Under the pieces are notes generated by a model, which was given only the letters and a program-made list of their open reading frames with translations, was not told the origin of the DNA and did not search any database. Positions 6,441 to 34,948 of a DNA stretch of 64,000 nucleotides are shown piece by piece. This DNA is from Streptomyces thermolilacinus SPC6 (GTDB lineage Bacteria > Actinomycetota > Actinomycetes > Streptomycetales > Streptomycetaceae), in NCBI RefSeq assembly GCF_000478605.2, contig NZ_ASHX02000001.1, positions 5,037,001 to 5,101,000 on the forward strand. Direction: 5' to 3'. Numbering within the stretch: the first letter of the stretch is position 1; each line of letters begins with the position of its first letter. A program made the translations under genes and the position numbers.

Positions 6441-9152
6441 GTGGCTGAGACAGCATCGAAGAAGACCGCACAAGACCGTCCGCGCCTGCTCCTCATGGAC
6501 GGGCACTCTCTGGCGTACCGGGCGTTCTTCGCGCTGCCCGCGGAGAATTTCACGACATCGAGCGGGCAGACGACCAATGCCGTGTACGGCTTCGCGTCGA
6601 TGTTGGCGAACACGCTGCGTGACGAGGCGCCGACGCATTTCGCGGTGGCGTTCGACGTGTCCCGCAAGACGTGGCGCTCCCAGGACTTCCCGGAGTACAA
6701 GGCGAACCGTTCGGCGACGCCCGACGAGTTCAAGGGGCAGGTGGAGCTGATCGGCGAGCTGCTGGACACGATGAACGCGGTCCGGTTCGCCGTGGAGGGC
6801 TTCGAGGCGGACGACATCATCGCGACGCTGGCCACGCAGGCGGAGGCGGCCGGGTTCGAGGTGCTGATCGTCACGGGCGACCGGGACTCGTTCCAGCTGG
6901 TGTCGGACCATGTGACGGTGCTGTACCCGACGAAGGGCGTCTCGGAGCTGACGCGGTTCACGCCGGAGAAGGTGCGGGAGAAGTACGGGCTGTCGCCGAG
7001 CCAGTACCCGGACTTCGCGGCGCTGCGCGGCGACCCGTCGGACAACCTGCCGGGCATTCCCGGGGTCGGTGAGAAGACGGCCACGAAGTGGATCAACCAG
7101 TTCGGTTCGTTCCAGGAGCTGGTGGAGCGGGCCGACGAGGTGAAGGGCAAGGTCGGGCAGGCGCTGCGCGACCACCTGGAGTCGGTGAAGCTGAACCGGC
7201 ACCTGACGGAGCTGGTGCGGGACGTGGAGCTGCCGAAGGCGGTCGCGGAGCTGGAGCGCGCCCCGTACGACCGGGCGGCGCTGAAGGGCTTCCTGGAGGT
7301 CCTGGAGATCCGTAACCCGAGCCTGCGCGAGCGGCTGCTGGCCGTGGACCCGGGCGCGGTCGAGGAGGAGGCGCCCGCCCCGGCTGCCGGGGTGGAGCTG
7401 GACGGCGCGGTGCTGGGCGCGGGTGAGCTGGCGCCTTGGCTCGAGCGGCACGGGGCGGGGCCGCTGGGCATGGCGACGGTGGACAGCTGGGCGCTGGGTG
7501 TCGGCAGCGTCGCCGAGGTGGCTCTGGCGGCGGCGGACGGCGCGGCGTGCTGGTTCGACCCGTCGCAGCTGGACGAGGCCGACGAGCGGGCGTTCGCCGC
7601 GTGGATCGCGGACCCGGCCCGGCCGAAGGTCCTGCACAACGCGAAGGCCGCCATGCGGGTCCTCCCCGAGCACGGCTGGAGTGTCGCCGGGGTCACCATG
7701 GACACGGCGCTCGCCGCGTACCTGGTGAAGCCGGGCCGCCGCTCCTTCGCGCTGGACGCCCTGGCCGTCGAGTACCTGGGCCGGGAGCTGGCCCCGCCGT
7801 CCGCCGCCGACGGGCAGCTGGCGTTCGGCGCGGACGACACGGCGGAGGCCGACGCGCTGATGACGCAGGCCCGCGCGGTCCTCGACCTGGGCGAGGCGTT
7901 CACGGCGCGCCTGGAGGAGGTCGGCGCGACACGGCTGCTGCACGAGGTGGAGCTGCCGACGTCCGAGCTGCTCGCCCGGATGGAGCGGCACGGCATCGCC
8001 GCGGACCGGCCGCACCTGGAGGCGATGGAGCAGCAGTTCGCCGGGGCGGTGCAGCAGGCCGTGAAGGAGGCGCACGCCTCGGTCGGCCACGAGTTCAACC
8101 TCGGGTCGCCCAAGCAGCTCCAGGAGGTGCTGTTCGGTGAGCTGAACCTGCCGAAGACGAAGAAGACGAAGACCGGGTACACGACGGACGCGGACGCGCT
8201 GGCGTGGCTGGCCGCGCAGACCGAGCACGAGCTGCCCGTGATCATGCTGCGCCACCGGGAGCAGGCCAAGCTCCGTGTCACGGTGGAGGGCCTGATCAAG
8301 ACGGTCGCCGGAGACGGCCGGATCCACACGACGTTCAACCAGACGGTCGCCGCGACGGGCCGCCTGTCGTCCACGGACCCGAACCTCCAGAACATCCCGG
8401 TCCGCACGGACGAGGGCCGCGCCATCCGCCGGGGCTTCGTCGTCGGTGAGGGCTTCGACGCCCTGATGACCGCCGACTACAGCCAGATCGAGCTGCGCGT
8501 CATGGCGCACCTGTCGGAGGACGAGGGTCTCATCGAGGCGTTCACCTCCGGCGAGGACCTGCACACGACGGTCGCGTCCCAGGTGTTCGGCGTGGACAAG
8601 TCTGCGGTGGACGCCGAGATGCGCCGCAAGATCAAGGCGATGTCGTACGGGCTGGCGTACGGGCTGTCCGCGTTCGGCCTGTCGCAGCAGCTGAACATCG
8701 AGGCGGCCGAGGCGCGCGCCCTGATGGACACGTACTTCGAGCGGTTCGGCGGTGTGCGGGACTATCTGCGCCGGGTCGTGGACGAGGCCCGCGCCACCGG
8801 GTACACGGAGACGATGCTCGGCCGCCGTCGCTACCTGCCCGACCTGAACAGCGACAACCGGCAGCGCCGCGAGATGGCCGAGCGGATGGCGCTCAACGCC
8901 CCGATCCAGGGCACGGCCGCCGACATCGTGAAGGTCGCCATGCTCAACGTGGACCGGGCGCTGACCGAGGCCGGGCTGTCGTCGCGGATGCTGCTCCAGG
9001 TGCACGACGAGATCGTGCTGGAGCTCGCGCCGGGGGAGCGGGAGCGGGTCGAGGAGATCGTGCGCCGCGAGATGGCGTCGGCGGTCGAGCTGCGGGCGCC
9101 GCTGGACGTGTCCGTGGGCGTCGGCCCCGACTGGGAGTCCGCCGCGCACTGA
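6441..9152 (+). CDS. polA: DNA polymerase I
   Basis: 903 residues. Order: 5' nuclease domain (about 1-300, with LLLMDGHSLAYRAFFALP and the DADD-rich nuclease motifs), a degenerate 3'-5' exonuclease fold (about 310-500), and a complete family A polymerase domain with motif A DYSQIELR near 679, motif B RRKIKAMSYGLAYG near 728 and motif C VHDE near 854. The exonuclease region lacks the usual acidic residues (MATVDSWALG and HNAKAAMRVL occupy those places), so proofreading is unlikely; this is usual in actinobacteria. GTG 6441 was chosen over in-frame GTG 6435 because it sits 7 bases after the -10. The frame stays open upstream to 5868 but that part is antisense to the oxidoreductase. Confidence 0.96.
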   Translation: MAETASKKTAQDRPRLLLMDGHSLAYRAFFALPAENFTTSSGQTTNAVYGFASMLANTLRDEAPTHFAVAFDVSRKTWRSQDFPEYKANRSATPDEFKGQVELIGELLDTMNAVRFAVEGFEADDIIATLATQAEAAGFEVLIVTGDRDSFQLVSDHVTVLYPTKGVSELTRFTPEKVREKYGLSPSQYPDFAALRGDPSDNLPGIPGVGEKTATKWINQFGSFQELVERADEVKGKVGQALRDHLESVKLNRHLTELVRDVELPKAVAELERAPYDRAALKGFLEVLEIRNPSLRERLLAVDPGAVEEEAPAPAAGVELDGAVLGAGELAPWLERHGAGPLGMATVDSWALGVGSVAEVALAAADGAACWFDPSQLDEADERAFAAWIADPARPKVLHNAKAAMRVLPEHGWSVAGVTMDTALAAYLVKPGRRSFALDALAVEYLGRELAPPSAADGQLAFGADDTAEADALMTQARAVLDLGEAFTARLEEVGATRLLHEVELPTSELLARMERHGIAADRPHLEAMEQQFAGAVQQAVKEAHASVGHEFNLGSPKQLQEVLFGELNLPKTKKTKTGYTTDADALAWLAAQTEHELPVIMLRHREQAKLRVTVEGLIKTVAGDGRIHTTFNQTVAATGRLSSTDPNLQNIPVRTDEGRAIRRGFVVGEGFDALMTADYSQIELRVMAHLSEDEGLIEAFTSGEDLHTTVASQVFGVDKSAVDAEMRRKIKAMSYGLAYGLSAFGLSQQLNIEAAEARALMDTYFERFGGVRDYLRRVVDEARATGYTETMLGRRRYLPDLNSDNRQRREMAERMALNAPIQGTAADIVKVAMLNVDRALTEAGLSSRMLLQVHDEIVLELAPGERERVEEIVRREMASAVELRAPLDVSVGVGPDWESAAH

Positions 9153-20678: not shown

Positions 20679-20701
20679 TTGTCAGACCCCCGCCGTAAGG
20701 T
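20679..20701 (+). promoter_or_regulatory. Putative RecA-independent DNA-damage promoter of the SNF2 helicase gene
   Basis: TTGTCAGAC (20679-20687), 8 bases, TAAGGT (20696-20701): the tTGTCRgtg-N8-TAnnnT layout with two differences in the last three bases of the first half. Transcription would start near 20708, 50 bases before ATG 20757, leaving room for the GGGGAGG ribosome site. Confidence 0.55.
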
Positions 20702-20756
20702 CGGTGATGGACAGGACCCGACCGCCGGGGGACACGTCAGGGGAGGTGACCGGCTC

Positions 20757-23702
20757 ATGAGCGACGACACGCCACGTGCGCGCGCCCCGCACGGCTGCGC
20801 CGCCGTGTTCCTGCCCGCCGCCCTGCCCCGCGACGGCCGCGTCGCCTTCTGGTCCCCCGACGGCGCCCCCCTCCCCTCCGCCCCGCCGTACGGCACCACC
20901 CCGCCGTACGCCACCGACCTGCCGTACGGCACCGCCCCGCCGCACGCCACCGGCCCGGCGGGCGTGACCGGCCCACCGGGGACACCCCGACCGGCAGAGA
21001 CCATCGCCCCGCCGTGGCAGACCGGCACGCTCACGGTCGTACGGCGCCACGGCGACGGGGCCCGCAGCCGCCGCGTGCCCGCCCTGCTGCTGCCCGTCGC
21101 CGACGCCCTGCCCCTGCTCGCCGCCGCCCGCCACGACCCGCGCGCCCACCCCGCCACCGCCTGCTGGGGCGCCGCCACCCTGCACGGGCTGCACCTCGCC
21201 GCCCGGGGCCGCCTCCTGCCCGGCCTCACCGCCGACGACCTGGACGCCTGGCGGGCCGGCCCGCTGGACGCCGACGACATCGCCCACCTGCGCGCCGTCG
21301 CCGCCGCCATGCCGTACGAGGCGCACGCCGTGCCCGTACCGGGCCGCAAACCGCTGCAGCTGCCCGAGCCCGAGGCGCTCGTCCGGGCGTTCCTCGACGC
21401 CGTGGCCGACAGCCTGCCGCGCACGCCCGCCGCCGCGTACGCCGCGGGGGCGCCGTTCGCCGCGCGGGAGCCGCAGCGGCTGCCCCACGCGCGCGCGTGG
21501 GCCGCCGAGGCGGCCGCCGGGATGGACGCGGGCGTCCGCGTCTCGCTGCGCCTCGACCTCTCCTCGTACGAGCTGTTCGACACGGCCCCGGACGGCGGCG
21601 ACGAGCGGCGGGCCGCGGCGGCGGTCGTCCAGGTGCACAGCCTCGCCGACCCCGCCCTCGTCCTCGACGCCGACGCCCTGTGGGCCGGTGAGGACGACCA
21701 CCTGGGGCCCCGCGCGCGCGTGGACGCCCTGCTCGCCCTGCGCCGCGCCGCCCGCGTCTGGGCCCCGCTCGGCCGGCTCCTGGAGCGCCCCGTCCCCGAC
21801 GTCCTCGCTCTCACCGAGGACGAGCTGTACGAGCTGCTGGGCCCCGCCGCCGCCCGCCTCGACGCGGCGGGCGTCACCGTGCACTGGCCCCGCGAGCTGG
21901 CCCGGACGCTCACCGCCGCCGCCGTGGTCCGGCCCGCGCCCGGTTCCGCCACGGACGGCACGGCGTTCTTCGACAGCGCCTCCCTGCTCCGTTTCGACTG
22001 GCAGCTCGCCCTGGACGGCGACCCCCTGACCGAGCGGGAGATGGACGCCCTCGCTGAGGCCCACCGGCCCGTCGTACGGCTCCGCGACCGCTGGGTCGTC
22101 GTCGATCCCGCCCTCGTCCGCAAGGCACGCAAGCGGCAGCTCGGCCTGCTGGAGCCGGTGGACGCGCTCGCCGCCGCCCTCACCGGCACCGCCGAGGTCG
22201 ACGGCGAGACCGTGCCCGCCGTCCCCGTCGGCGCGCTCGCCGACCTGCGCGACCGGCTCACCGCGGGACCCGTCCCCGCTGCCCCGCCGCCCGGCCTCGA
22301 CGCGACCCTGCGCGACTACCAGCTGCGCGGCCTGGCCTGGCTCGACCTGATGGCCTCCCTCGGCCTCGGCGGCTGCCTCGCCGACGACATGGGCCTCGGC
22401 AAGACCGTCACGCTCATCGCCCTCCACCTGCGCCGCGCCCGCCCGGAACCGACCCTCGTCGTCTGCCCCGCCTCACTCCTCGGCAACTGGCAGCGCGAGA
22501 TCCGCCGCTTCGCGCCCGGCGTGCCCGTCCGCCGCTTCCACGGCGCCGCCCGCACCCTCGACGGCACCGACGGCGGGTTCGTCCTCACCACGTACGGCAC
22601 GATGCGCACCAGCGCCGCGCAGCTCGCCGCACAGCCGTGGGGCCTGGTCGTCGCGGACGAGGCGCAGCACGTGAAGAACCCGTTCTCCGCCACGGCCAAG
22701 GCGCTGCGCACGATTCCCGCCCCCGCCCGCGTCGCCCTCACCGGCACGCCCGTCGAGAACAACCTCTCCGAGCTGTGGGCCCTGCTCGACTGGACCACCC
22801 CCGGCCTCCTCGGCCCGCTGAAGGCGTTCCGCGCCCGGCACGCCCGCGCCGTCGAGAACAGCGAGGAGATCGAGAACGAGGAGGCCGTCGAGCGGCTAGC
22901 CCGGCTCGTCCGCCCCTTCCTGCTGCGCCGCCGCAAGTCCGACCCGGGCATCGTCCCCGAGCTGCCGCCCAAGACCGAGTCCGACCACCCCGTGGCCCTC
23001 ACCCGCGAGCAGGCGTCCCTCTACGAGGCGGTCGTCCGCGAGACGATGACCGCCATCGAGGAGTCCCGGGGCATGGCCCGCCGGGGCCTGATCATGAAGC
23101 TGCTCACCTCGCTCAAGCAGATCTGCAACCACCCGGCGCAGTACCTGAAGGAGGACACGCACCGGCTCGCGGGCCGCTCCGGGAAGCTGGCCCTCCTCGA
23201 CGAGCTGCTCGACACGATCCTCAGCGAGGACGGCTCGGTCCTCGTCTTCACCCAGTACGTGTCCATGGCCCGGCTCCTCACCTCCCACCTGACGGCCCGC
23301 GCCATCCCCTCCCAGCTGCTGCACGGCGGCACCCCGATCGCGGAGCGGGAGCGGATGGTCGACCGCTTCCAGGCCGGCGACGTCCCCGTCTTCGTCCTGT
23401 CGCTGAAGGCAGCGGGCACCGGCCTCAACCTCACCCGCGCCGGGCACGTCGTCCACTACGACCGCTGGTGGAACCCGGCCGTCGAGGAACAGGCCACCGA
23501 CCGCGCCTACCGCATCGGGCAGACCCAGCCCGTCCAGGTCCACCGGCTGATCGCGGAGGGCACCGTCGAGGACCGCATCGCCGAACTCCTCGCCTCCAAG
23601 CGGGCGCTGGCCGACGCCGTCCTCGGCTCCGGCGAGGCCGCCCTCACCGAGCTGACCGACCGCGAGCTGGCGGACCTCGTGTCGCTGAGGAGGCCGTCGT
23701 GA
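20757..23702 (+). CDS. SNF2-family DEAD/DEAH-box helicase
   Basis: 981 residues. N-terminal 480 residues are the bacterial SNF2-associated region (RFDWQLALDGDPLTEREMDAL, then VRLRDRWVVVDPAL). ATPase core: DDMGLGKTVTL near 543, DEAQ box 634-637, LTGTPVENNLSELW, then the helicase C domain with VFTQYVSMARLL, SLKAAGTGLNL and YRIGQTQPVQVHRLI. It probably remodels DNA-protein complexes as an ATP-driven translocase. An unusual PYGT/PYAT repeat (about 43-63) sits near the N-terminus. ATG 20757 follows GGGGAGG; the frame is open upstream but without family features. It resembles mycobacterial HelZ, itself a damage-inducible gene. The next gene encodes a SWIM-finger protein. Confidence 0.93.
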   Translation: MSDDTPRARAPHGCAAVFLPAALPRDGRVAFWSPDGAPLPSAPPYGTTPPYATDLPYGTAPPHATGPAGVTGPPGTPRPAETIAPPWQTGTLTVVRRHGDGARSRRVPALLLPVADALPLLAAARHDPRAHPATACWGAATLHGLHLAARGRLLPGLTADDLDAWRAGPLDADDIAHLRAVAAAMPYEAHAVPVPGRKPLQLPEPEALVRAFLDAVADSLPRTPAAAYAAGAPFAAREPQRLPHARAWAAEAAAGMDAGVRVSLRLDLSSYELFDTAPDGGDERRAAAAVVQVHSLADPALVLDADALWAGEDDHLGPRARVDALLALRRAARVWAPLGRLLERPVPDVLALTEDELYELLGPAAARLDAAGVTVHWPRELARTLTAAAVVRPAPGSATDGTAFFDSASLLRFDWQLALDGDPLTEREMDALAEAHRPVVRLRDRWVVVDPALVRKARKRQLGLLEPVDALAAALTGTAEVDGETVPAVPVGALADLRDRLTAGPVPAAPPPGLDATLRDYQLRGLAWLDLMASLGLGGCLADDMGLGKTVTLIALHLRRARPEPTLVVCPASLLGNWQREIRRFAPGVPVRRFHGAARTLDGTDGGFVLTTYGTMRTSAAQLAAQPWGLVVADEAQHVKNPFSATAKALRTIPAPARVALTGTPVENNLSELWALLDWTTPGLLGPLKAFRARHARAVENSEEIENEEAVERLARLVRPFLLRRRKSDPGIVPELPPKTESDHPVALTREQASLYEAVVRETMTAIEESRGMARRGLIMKLLTSLKQICNHPAQYLKEDTHRLAGRSGKLALLDELLDTILSEDGSVLVFTQYVSMARLLTSHLTARAIPSQLLHGGTPIAERERMVDRFQAGDVPVFVLSLKAAGTGLNLTRAGHVVHYDRWWNPAVEEQATDRAYRIGQTQPVQVHRLIAEGTVEDRIAELLASKRALADAVLGSGEAALTELTDRELADLVSLRRPS

Positions 23703-23724
23703 CCCTGAGGAGGCCGTCATGACC
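23685..23724. repeat. 20-bp tandem duplication at the SNF2/SWIM junction
   Basis: CTGAGGAGGCCGTC(G/A)TGACC occurs twice back to back (23685-23704 and 23705-23724). Copy one holds the SNF2 stop; copy two supplies the AGGAGG ribosome site and ATG of the SWIM gene. From GTG 23699 a 7-codon frame runs to a TGA overlapping the SWIM ATG. Confidence 0.92.
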
Positions 23725-25026
23725 CCCCGACCCGCCGCCGCGAACCGGCCCGCCCCGCGCCGCCCCGGAAGCGGCGGCCTCCGCGCCGCGCTGCCCGCCC
23801 ACGACGACCGGCGCCGCACCTTCCCGGCACTGCCGTCCGTCCCCGGCGGGAACGGCGGGTTCGCCACCACCTGGTGGGGCAACGCCTGGGTCGCCGCCCT
23901 GGAGGAGACCGCCCTCGACCCGGCCCGCCTCGCCCGCGGCCGCGCCTACGCGGGCCGGGGCCTCGTGGACGCCGTCACCGTCACACCCGGCCGCGTCACG
24001 GCGTACGTCCACGGCAGCCGCGCCCGCCCGTACCGCACGCAGATCCGGCTCCAGGTCCTCGGCGACGACGACTGGGAGACGTTCCTCGACGCCGCGGCGG
24101 CCCGCCCCGACCACATGGCGGCCCTGCTCGACAAGGACGTCCCCCAGGCGCTGGCCGACCTCACCGACCTCCTCCCGCACGCCGGGGACCTGATCCCCGA
24201 CTGCTCCTGCCCCGACGACGGATACCCCTGCAAGCACGCCGCCGCCCTCTGCTACCAGGCGGCCCGCCTCCTGGACGAGGACCCGTTCACGCTGTTCCTC
24301 ATGCGCGGGCGCGGCGAGCAGGAGATCCTCGCCGCGCTCGGCCACCGCAGCGCCGCCGCCTCCGCCGCCGAGGCCGGGGCCGCGCCGCCCCCGCCCGTGG
24401 CCACCGTGCCCGCCCGCGAAGCCGTCACGGCGGTACGGACGGCCGCACTGCCTCCGCCGCTGCCGCCCCCGGCCCACCCCGGCCGCCCGCCCGTCTACCC
24501 GGAGGCGCCCGGCGCGCCCGACCCGCTCGCCCTGGAGCTCCTCGCCACCGAGGCGGCCGCCCGCGCGCACACCCACCTGACCACAGGGCACGACCCGGTC
24601 GCGGGCCTCACCCCGTGGCAGGACGCTGTCCGGCTCGCCGCCGCCCACCCCGGCTCCGGCCTCACCGCCGGCACCCGCGCCCTGTACCGGGACATCGCCG
24701 CCGCCGTGGACCGCACACCGGCCGACCTGGCGCGCGCCGTCGCCGCCTGGCGCCAGGGCGGACCAGCCGGACTCGCCGTGCTGGAAGAGGCCTGGGACCC
24801 GCCCGCCGGGCCCTTCGACCGGGCCAGACCCGCCCTCACCGCCGCCGACTTCCCGCACTTCCGGCCGTGGCGCAACAGGCTTTCCACCGCCACGCTCCAG
24901 CTCCGCTACGGCCGCGACGGGCTCTGGTACGGCTACGAGTCGGACGCGGGCCGCGAGGACTGGTGGCCGCGCGGCACCCCGGACCCCGACCCGGTCGGAG
25001 CGCTCGCCGGACTGCTCGGCACCTGA
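23719..25026 (+). CDS. SWIM zinc-finger protein
   Basis: 435 residues. The zinc motif C162-x-C164-x6-C171-x-H173 (CSCPDDGYPCKHAAAL) is a full SWIM finger. The preceding region (TTWWGNAWVAALEE, LARGRAYAGRGLV, RPYRTQIRL) is typical of bacterial SWIM proteins encoded next to SNF2 helicases. The C-terminal half is A/P-rich with a WRNRLSTATLQLRYGRDGLWYGY-type end. SWIM domains bind DNA or protein; a SNF2 partner role is inferred from constant neighbourhood. AGGAGG at 23708-23713 precedes ATG 23719. Probably in one operon with the helicase. Confidence 0.9.
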   Translation: MTPRPAAANRPAPRRPGSGGLRAALPAHDDRRRTFPALPSVPGGNGGFATTWWGNAWVAALEETALDPARLARGRAYAGRGLVDAVTVTPGRVTAYVHGSRARPYRTQIRLQVLGDDDWETFLDAAAARPDHMAALLDKDVPQALADLTDLLPHAGDLIPDCSCPDDGYPCKHAAALCYQAARLLDEDPFTLFLMRGRGEQEILAALGHRSAAASAAEAGAAPPPPVATVPAREAVTAVRTAALPPPLPPPAHPGRPPVYPEAPGAPDPLALELLATEAAARAHTHLTTGHDPVAGLTPWQDAVRLAAAHPGSGLTAGTRALYRDIAAAVDRTPADLARAVAAWRQGGPAGLAVLEEAWDPPAGPFDRARPALTAADFPHFRPWRNRLSTATLQLRYGRDGLWYGYESDAGREDWWPRGTPDPDPVGALAGLLGT

Positions 25027-25081
25027 GCGTTACGCTGCAAGCCTGTTCGTGCTGACGATCGGTCGACCCCAAGGGGGAGCG

Positions 25082-25522
25082 GTGGAAGCGGAGTTGGTGG
25101 CGCTGGCGTCGACGGGGGCGGCTGCCCTCGTGCAGCAGATGGTCGGCGAGGCGTGGGAACAGACCCGGGGGCGGGTCGCCGCGTTCTTCGCCCGCCGCTC
25201 GGGCCAGGACGTGGCGGTGATCGACGGGGAGCTGGAGGAGGCCAGGGCCGAGCTGGTGGACGCCGAGCGGTCCGGTGACGAGCAGGCCAGGGACGAGGCG
25301 CTCACCGAGTGGCGCAGCCGCATGCGCCGCGCCCTGCGCAACGACCCGGAGGCGGCCGGGGAACTGCGCGCCCTGCTGGACGAGTTGAAGGGAACGGAGG
25401 CCGCGCCCCGGCAGGTCGTGGAGACCCACAACACGATGACCCACAGCACCGTGCACGGCGGCACGGTGATCCAGGCCGGCACGGTCGGCAGCATCAACTC
25501 CGGCGGTGAACGGGCCGGGTGA
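25082..25522 (+). CDS. Small helical protein with C-terminal amyloid-signalling-like motif
   Basis: 146 residues; no enzymatic family recognised. Residues 1-105 are predicted helical and charged (ELVALASTGAAALVQQMVGE, then LEEARAELVDAE, then RRALRNDPEAAGELRALLDEL). Residues 117-139 contain STVHGGTVIQAGTVGSIN, which resembles RHIM/PP-like amyloid signalling motifs found at the ends of bacterial NLR-associated proteins (core hydrophobic-Q-small-G). Such proteins usually have a partner with the same motif; none was seen in the window. GTG 25082 follows GGGGGAG closely; GTG 25049 is an alternative. It is 55 bases downstream of the SWIM gene, same strand. Function inferred only from the motif. Confidence 0.75.
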   Translation: MEAELVALASTGAAALVQQMVGEAWEQTRGRVAAFFARRSGQDVAVIDGELEEARAELVDAERSGDEQARDEALTEWRSRMRRALRNDPEAAGELRALLDELKGTEAAPRQVVETHNTMTHSTVHGGTVIQAGTVGSINSGGERAG

Positions 25523-25684: not shown

Positions 25685-26452
25685 ATGAGGCACAGTCGCC
25701 GAAATGGTCTGGTCATTCTGATGGCCACGAGCGGCGCGCTCGCGCTGGCCGCCGGCTCGGCGCAGGCCGACGCCGGCGCGTCGGGCGCGGCGGTCGGCTC
25801 GCCCGGACTGATCTCGGGCAATGGGGTGCAGCTGCCGGTGCACGTCCCGGTCAACGTCTGCGGGAACACCGTGAACGTGGTGGGCGTGCTGAACCCCGCG
25901 TTCGGCAACGGCTGCGCGAACAAGGGTGGCGGCGCGCACGGCTCCCACCAGGACAAGCCCGGCACGTCCCACGGCTCCGGCCACGGCGGCAAGGGCCAGG
26001 GCGGGCGCGGCAGCGGCAACGGGGGCGGAGCGACCGCCGACGGCGCCGCCGTGGGCTCACCCGGCGTGATCTCCGGCAACGGAGTGCAGCTCCCCGTGGA
26101 CCTGCCGGTCAACGTCTCGGGGAACTCGGTCAACGTCGTCGGCATCGGCAACCCGGTCTTCGGCAACACCTCCGACAACGGCGGCGCCGAGCCGCCCACG
26201 CAGGTCACCCCGCCGAAGCCCGCCGAGCCCGCAGAGCCCGCGAAGCCCGCCGAGCCGACCACGCCGCCGAAGAGCGACGAGCCCGCGAAGCCCGCCGCGC
26301 CCAAGCCCGCCGCGGAGGCACCCGCACACGCCCCGACCCTCGCGGTCACGGGCACCGGCGACCTCGTCGGCATCGGCCTGCCCGCCGCGGGGCTGCTCAT
26401 TGCCGGGGCGATGATCTACGGCCGCTCCCGCCGGTCGTCCGCCCGCGCCTGA
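25685..26452 (+). CDS. Long chaplin, sortase-anchored
   Basis: 255 residues. Signal peptide 1-29 (MRHSRRNGLVILMATSGALA). Two chaplin domains, about 33-76 and 119-160, each with GSPGxISGNGVQLPV and NVVGxxNPxFGN. A G/H/S/K-rich hydrophilic spacer separates them, then a P/A/E/K wall-spanning region with PAEPAEPAKP repeats, a sorting signal LAVTG at 219-223, a hydrophobic helix and a basic tail RSRRSSARA. So it is secreted, linked to peptidoglycan by a class E sortase, and should help coat aerial hyphae by amyloid assembly. Oddity: domain one has the two cysteines (VNVCGN, NGCANK) but domain two has Ser/Thr there. Confidence 0.94.
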   Translation: MRHSRRNGLVILMATSGALALAAGSAQADAGASGAAVGSPGLISGNGVQLPVHVPVNVCGNTVNVVGVLNPAFGNGCANKGGGAHGSHQDKPGTSHGSGHGGKGQGGRGSGNGGGATADGAAVGSPGVISGNGVQLPVDLPVNVSGNSVNVVGIGNPVFGNTSDNGGAEPPTQVTPPKPAEPAEPAKPAEPTTPPKSDEPAKPAAPKPAAEAPAHAPTLAVTGTGDLVGIGLPAAGLLIAGAMIYGRSRRSSARA

Positions 26453-33768: not shown

Positions 33769-33791
33769 ACGCTACGCGCCGCCACTGACAC
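33769..33791 (-). promoter_or_regulatory. Putative RecA-independent DNA-damage promoter of ogt
   Basis: Read on the minus strand: GTGTCAGTG (33791-33783), 8 bases, TAGCGT (33774-33769), 6 bases, ATG. It matches the tTGTCRgtg-N8-TAnnnT element with only the first T replaced by G. Confidence 0.7.
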
Positions 33792-34925: not shown

Positions 34926-34948
34926 CTGTCAGTGGCGGGTCGTACGGT
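34926..34948 (+). promoter_or_regulatory. Putative RecA-independent DNA-damage promoter of uvrB
   Basis: CTGTCAGTG (34926-34934), 8 bases, TACGGT (34943-34948), then 6 bases to ATG 34955. Matches tTGTCRgtg-N8-TAnnnT except the first base. Confidence 0.72.

Follow-up and report, generated by a model that had tools for sequence, protein, structure and literature searches.

Introduction

Bacterial NLR amyloid signalosomes, with a BASS3/RHIM-like class among them, and the Bell-type effectors were reportedly described by Dyrka et al in 2020. In the architecture reviewed for such signalosomes (PMC7889193), a small helical protein carries an amyloid motif at its C-terminus, and a neighboring NLR carries one at its N-terminus; a RHIM-like BASS3 peptide from Frankia has been used as bona fide control in amyloid assays (PMC8086366). 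Here, a 64-kb stretch of the genome of Streptomyces thermolilacinus SPC6 was analyzed (G000:C1:5037001-5101000; G000 designates the source genome and "the window" the whole stretch), in which genes for an SNF2 helicase, a SWIM-finger protein, a 146-aa open reading frame (ORF; hereafter the small gene, encoding the small protein), and a chaplin follow one another on the forward strand. A first-pass annotation had proposed that the first three form one damage-inducible unit acting in the response to stress or phage. We consider it probable that they are two neighbors, not one machine: a damage operon and, co-inherited with it, an orphan RHIM-like (BASS3-like) effector gene that would be expressed autonomously.

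Results

The small protein is a predicted helical bundle with a RHIM-like motif

AlphaFold2 modeled the N-terminal domain of the small protein (residues 1–105) as a bundle of five helices, with blockwise predicted local distance difference test (pLDDT) values between 89 and 94, followed by a disordered tail. This tail carries the RHIM-like motif THNTMTHSTVHGGTVIQAGTVGSIN, which had been annotated as the end of a protein encoded 55 nt behind the SWIM gene. Motif and distance stood up to reanalysis, but the position had to be corrected: the motif lies near, and not at, the C-terminus, as seven residues come after residue 139. A motif profile was made from the window copy and its relatives. When it was run against the source genome, the window motif was the best match (E 8e-8, compared with 0.39 for the best match of a reversed-motif control); as the window sequence is itself part of that profile, the independent support for the motif is its conservation in relatives. 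The N and Q positions were conserved in 11 of 11 aligned sequences. Homologues share the helical bundle, many of them also a tail of the type VHNTISGGVQHGTVIQAGTIGSL, and AAGGGGG or a similar ribosome site precedes most of their genes. In the window copy, the start of the motif is altered (THST instead of SGG).

No family was assigned to the small protein by Pfam, NCBIfam, or PADLOC; a Pfam match to Rx_N was rejected, as it was obtained for only 1 of 11 members (E 0.013) and is probably due to chance. One branch of the family (L014, L017, L020, L021, L024, and L025) ends in another conserved tail, RVYQAGRDQHITER, possibly another signaling motif. Copies on plasmids were only distantly related (43% at best); recent plasmid transfer of the small gene is, therefore, not indicated.

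Relatives of the small gene neighbor, or are fused to, NB-ARC receptors

In three genomes (G028, G036, and G019), the gene directly behind the homologue encodes an NB-ARC/TPR NLR of 697–804 aa, the N-terminus of which bears the same kind of motif (NSVSGGSQRNVIQAGTIGEVHF, NHISGTVHGAAVQAHSIGTLTI, and NDLSGQVYGPSVQAQRIHGGITF, respectively). An NLR was present no more than 3 kb downstream on the same strand at 17 of 80 loci, a count based on four query proteins, with which other receptor types may be missed. These loci were selected as the best 80 matches to a query alignment with SWIM-linked sequences in half of its rows, which inflates the SWIM-linked fraction among them. A hidden Markov model (HMM) built from effector tails only recognized many NLR N-termini, with scores of 9–29 bits (8.2 for the best shuffled ORF); the window copy scored 12.3, which is below most family members. 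Furthermore, in-frame fusions join the helical domain to NB-ARC in G033 (821 aa) and G002, which argues independently that the receptor has this domain as its output. The adjacent NLRs with the same motif and the NB-ARC fusions bear out the earlier proposal that the small protein is of the NLR-type amyloid-signaling kind; judged by its sequence, it belongs with helical-bundle/RHIM proteins of the kind found in bacterial NLR amyloid signalosomes.

At L251 (4103–6568, minus strand) and at L252/L027, the helical domain is fused in frame to NB-ARC/TPR, and a covalent link replaces the motif-to-motif link. An apparent fusion at L241 was rejected, since the reading frame there only stays open for a long stretch behind the tail.

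The source genome encodes candidate partners in trans

Beside the small protein, the motif profile detected three more RHIM-like proteins in the source genome (compare the reversed-motif value of 0.39), the domain names of which are a reading of their sequences by eye: a protein of 1293 aa with an N-terminal RHIM-like motif and a histidine-kinase/HSP90-type ATPase region (L249, 6026–9907; E 0.002), a STAND-like P-loop protein of 718 aa with Sel1-like repeats and the motif ∼100 residues in (L250, 5961–8117; E 0.02), and a 91-aa RHIM-like NLR start followed by a 377-aa TPR ORF (L248, 5495–6900; E 0.04). No NB-ARC core lies between the two ORFs at L248, which looks like a broken or shortened NLR, and no homologue of its TPR part was found in 60 other genomes. 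All three are candidate partners in trans of the small protein. Among the NB-ARC proteins that Pfam found in the source genome, the eight on the plus strand had no RHIM-like N-terminus as judged by eye; the three on the minus strand were checked by the motif profile only.

In the mechanism we propose, a sensor NTPase would oligomerize in response to a cue, and its RHIM-like motif would nucleate an amyloid, onto which the C-terminal motif of the effector would be templated; once clustered in this way, the helical domains would work as a death effector, with the membrane as the most likely target.

Near solitary homologues (L189, L190, L192, L193, L200, and L233), further genes encode small proteins whose N-terminus bears a RHIM-like motif. 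Several of these proteins continue into hydrophobic, membrane-type stretches (e.g., L193, + 8362–8991), and a second RHIM-tailed protein is sometimes present in these clusters, which are RHIM clusters without an NLR.

Most homologues of the small gene lie apart from SNF2–SWIM loci

Across 150 Streptomyces genomes, 192 homologues of the small protein were found in 96, and SWIM relatives in 144. Among the matches listed, five homologues (G000, G023, G028, G036, and G068) lie within 5 kb of a SWIM gene by comparison of coordinates, and that of G072 is probably a sixth. This survey, unlike the 80-locus set, gives a fair count of SWIM linkage. Nearly all Streptomyces SNF2–SWIM loci, in turn, are without the small gene. 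The co-occurrence check set in advance for the proposal of one three-gene unit, thus, showed the small gene mostly without the SNF2/SWIM pair, and the proposal is not upheld.

The 13 SWIM-adjacent copies, together with two near ones, all fall into one clade of 15 rows (support of 87 in the Shimodaira–Hasegawa-like approximate likelihood-ratio test, SH-aLRT); the position is, therefore, inherited. An NLR is present in four members of this clade and in none of the remaining eleven. Three arrangements occur at the site: SWIM–chaplin (G006), SWIM–small gene–chaplin (the window, S. roseolilacinus L164, and L167), and SWIM–small gene–NLR, with the chaplin gene ∼4 kb further on (L169 and L174). This placement would fit loss of the NLR with retention of the effector, although counts cannot tell gain from loss.

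The −10-like sequence TANNCT occurs within ∼12 nt of the SWIM stop at 13 of 13 loci at which the small gene is adjacent (G023 and the window counted), overlapping the stop codon itself in two or three of them, as compared with 1 of 26 loci without the gene. The small gene, therefore, probably has its own promoter, which would make its expression independent of SNF2–SWIM induction. Most unlinked homologues have a different, similarly placed −10-like element (CTCTACGGT and TACCGTGG), as judged by eye.

In the S. rimosus group, a sister lineage (L113, L199, L201, and L217), a damage-type box (TGTCAGTGRGGTCAAGTAGCKT) was found 160–260 nt upstream of an effector–NLR pair. It is 91–100% identical across the four genomes, compared with 25–82% for its flanks. 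The exact box occurs no more than 500 nt upstream of the effector at 2 of 80 loci, with ∼0.8 expected, so that the case for the S. rimosus group rests on conservation and not on the count. At these four loci (at 8197 in L113), the conserved box lies between a helicase-associated-like gene and the effector–NLR pair.

The SNF2–SWIM pair is probably a damage-inducible operon

The box TTGTCAGACCCCCGCCGTAAGGT ends 55 nt before the ATG of the SNF2 gene (20757) and is the single exact match to its pattern in the window (20679–20701); two more damage-type boxes, near-consensus with one mismatch each, are located at 34926–34948 (+) and 33769–33791 (−). Apart from the final two positions of its first block, TTGTCAGACCCCCGCCGTAAGGT fits tTGTCRgtg-N8-TAnnnT, the RecA-independent damage motif of mycobacteria (quoted in PMC5656591). 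When the source genome was scanned for TTGTCRGNS-N8-TANNNT, 31 sites were found, as compared with 1 for the same pattern reversed. The ORFs behind these sites include, according to translations read by eye, recA, ligA, xseA, radA, dnaX, rpsF, a WGR-domain protein, and a second SWIM protein (L155). The exact box is also present 5′ of 23 of 31 SNF2 orthologues (the window counted), mostly 54–88 nt before the called start; for a few orthologues, the start was called too far upstream, and the box lands inside the called frame. The excess of sites over the control, the repair genes behind them, and the conservation among SNF2 orthologues point to a PafBC-type regulon in this Streptomyces. A study of 2022, in which an initial search suggested a lack of conservation of the M. 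smegmatis motif in S. venezuelae, had left this question open (PMC9380542).

The damage-type promoter that the first-pass annotation had seen before the SNF2 gene is, thus, corroborated by sequence, and so are the identities of the two proteins behind it. The SNF2 protein matched NF058637 with 1539 bits (cut-off 1200), as well as PF00176, PF12419, and PF00271, and the SWIM protein matched PF04434 with 30.9 bits (gathering cut-off 19.6), the CxC...CxH pattern of the finger being present (CSCPDDGYPCKH). Assignment of the SNF2 protein to the DpdE/ZorD/DrmD defense helicases was rejected: the PADLOC matches reflect the shared helicase core only, NCBIfam gave 293 of 1500 bits for ZorD and 55 of 500 bits for DpdE, and no partner genes of these systems were recognized beside the SNF2 gene.

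The SWIM start does lie on a duplicated junction, as had been noted, namely on a 20-bp tandem repeat (23685–23704 and 23705–23724), the copies of which are identical at 19 of 20 positions. Eight relatives have a single copy, with an ATGA stop/start overlap; the duplication in the window is, therefore, derived. The mini-ORF MTLRRPS, with its stop on the SWIM start, may keep translational coupling intact. For the SNF2–SWIM arrangement, the best explanation is an operon with translational coupling and a PafBC-type promoter; this operon is genus-wide and probably damage-inducible.

Table 1. Features of the SNF2–SWIM–small gene region (coordinates refer to the window).
Feature	Position	Strand	Basis
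Damage-type box, PafBC/RecA-independent, TTGTCAGACCCCCGCCGTAAGGT	20679..20701	+	Consensus match, genome count, orthologue conservation
SNF2-family helicase, SCO1167/SCO6262 family, 981 aa	20757..23702	+	NF058637; PF00176, PF12419, PF00271
20-bp tandem duplication at the SNF2/SWIM junction (23685-23704 + 23705-23724)	23685..23724	+	19/20 identical
Mini-ORF of 7 codons, MTLRRPS; stop overlaps SWIM start	23699..23722	+	Product of the duplication
SWIM zinc-finger protein, 435 aa; finger at residues 160–180	23719..25026	+	PF04434 above cut-off
−10-like TACGCT, 51 nt 5′ of the small-gene start	25031..25036	+	TANNCT tracks with the small gene
Shine-Dalgarno-like AAGGGGGAG of the small gene	25071..25079	+	Sequence
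Small amyloid-motif protein, 146 aa; GTG start at 25082	25082..25522	+	55 nt past the SWIM stop
Helical-bundle domain, residues 1–105 of the small protein	25082..25396	+	AlphaFold2
RHIM-like motif THNTMTHSTVHGGTVIQAGTVGSIN, residues 115–139 of the small protein	25424..25498	+	Motif profile; NLR N-termini of relatives
Long chaplin with two ChpA-C domains, 162 nt 3′ of the small gene	25685-26452	+	Domain search

The chaplin, a member of a secreted functional amyloid family, is a conserved SWIM neighbor in several genomes; that it lies near an amyloid-motif gene appears to be a coincidence.

Discussion

Several observations weigh against an orphan effector that is expressed from its own promoter. 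No NLR lies beside the small gene in the window, where the chaplin gene comes next. Fold searches of the PDB, in which the HeLo/MLKL four-helix and plant Rx coiled-coil folds were of interest, gave no clear match (best Foldseek E 0.91; the best VIA-align Z was 4.7, to unrelated bundles, and that to Rx-CC 3.4), and hydropathy indicated no clear membrane helix in the small protein or at the 80 family loci: in the Kyte–Doolittle analysis with 19-residue windows, a crude test for membrane helices, the small protein reached 1.28 and the family 1.57 at most, all 80 staying below 1.6, and the most hydrophobic stretch was usually the first helix. Simple scans around the small gene found neither a −35 element nor a sigma-70 consensus promoter. 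The single clade formed by the 13 SWIM-adjacent copies and the two near ones also belongs on this side, since a purely autonomous gene would not have to show one; it counts in favor of one damage-induced unit, in which PafBC activation would transcribe SNF2, SWIM, and the small gene and thereby arm an amyloid-triggered response to DNA damage, e.g., by phage. Such a unit would agree with the common strand, with the 55-nt gap, and with the fact that simple scans found no intrinsic terminator around the small gene, this gap included; moreover, the box precedes SNF2 at 8 of the 10 SWIM-adjacent loci readable there, and the effector–NLR pair is preceded by a conserved damage-type box in four genomes with a near arrangement. 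Nevertheless, we regard it as unlikely, given that only five or six of the 192 homologues, among the matches listed, are beside SWIM, that the small gene is missing from nearly all Streptomyces SNF2–SWIM loci, and that the promoter-like element tracks with the small gene. It is quite improbable, in our view, that PafBC-driven read-through from SNF2–SWIM into the orphan effector gene makes a damage-licensed death module, in which DNA damage would raise the amount of an effector that HATPase-like or STAND-like RHIM sensors encoded elsewhere in the genome could template. If true, that module would link the response to DNA damage with amyloid-triggered cell death, and no dedicated NLR would be required.

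The last point against the orphan effector concerns its motif. Between the window and S. roseolilacinus (L164), both of which are without the NLR, the ratio of nonsynonymous to synonymous substitutions (dN/dS; Nei–Gojobori counts on short sequences) was ∼0.38 for the helical domain, at 87% identity, and ∼1.3 for the 33 codons of the motif tail (dN 0.45 and dS 0.35); the helical domain is, therefore, constrained, and the motif less so. A fast motif tail is what a decaying gene would show as well, and an effector left unused and drifting after loss of its NLR would also account for the absence of the NLR at the window locus, for THST in place of SGG, and for the apparently broken state of the RHIM-bearing NLR elsewhere in the genome (91 aa + 377 aa, no NB-ARC core). 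Frame, ribosome site, and promoter-like element of the small gene are intact, however, the constraint on its helical domain is at odds with drift, and other genomes hold many intact copies for which no NLR was detected, which makes decay distinctly unlikely. Other RHIM-like NTPases in the genome and the commonness of solo copies could also be reconciled with a decoy or brake, the motif of a solo protein capping the RHIM amyloids of other proteins in the cell; that solo and paired copies are alike in architecture and keep the effector domain renders this very improbable. We give hardly any credence to a fortuitous motif in a protein unrelated to amyloid signaling. The motif is, admittedly, short, and the window copy scored lower than most with the effector-tail HMM (12.3), but shuffled sequences reached only 8.2, the profile separated the motif clearly from its reversed control (8e-8 versus 0.39), and the same motif is kept across the family and at the N-termini of adjacent NLRs.

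Known bacterial amyloid signalosomes were defined as pairs of a receptor gene and an effector gene. With a syntenic clade that keeps the effector but has the receptor in some members only, it can be tested whether solo RHIM effectors operate together with distant sensors. The damage boxes, at SNF2 throughout the genus and at the effector–NLR pair in one lineage, raise the question of a link between genotoxic stress and cell death in a multicellular bacterium.

Comparison with known systems

The SNF2 helicase and its SWIM neighbor correspond to the SCO1167/SCO6262 family over the full length, and relatives show the start/stop overlap; the window differs by the 20-bp tandem duplication at the junction. 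With the mycobacterial PafBC (RecA-NDp) regulon, the locus shares the tTGTCRgtg-N8-TAnnnT box, which is also found before recA and other repair genes of the source genome; the host, in contrast, is a Streptomyces, the genus of the S. venezuelae search reported in 2022 (PMC9380542). Bell-type effectors are small alpha-helical bundles with a predicted hydrophobic transmembrane helix, whereas no clear membrane helix was evident from hydropathy in the family of the window protein. The small protein has its counterpart in the BASS3/RHIM-like signalosome: it likewise has a small helical domain at the N-terminus and a RHIM-like motif in its C-terminal part, is actinobacterial, and, in its relatives, has an NB-ARC/TPR receptor encoded directly behind it whose N-terminus bears the motif. 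Unlike in that system, the window gene has no adjoining receptor and, in one clade, sits 3′ of a damage operon, and some genomes fuse the effector domain straight to NB-ARC. As no NLR adjoins it, the window gene is classed as an orphan relative of the RHIM-like signalosome and not as a complete system.

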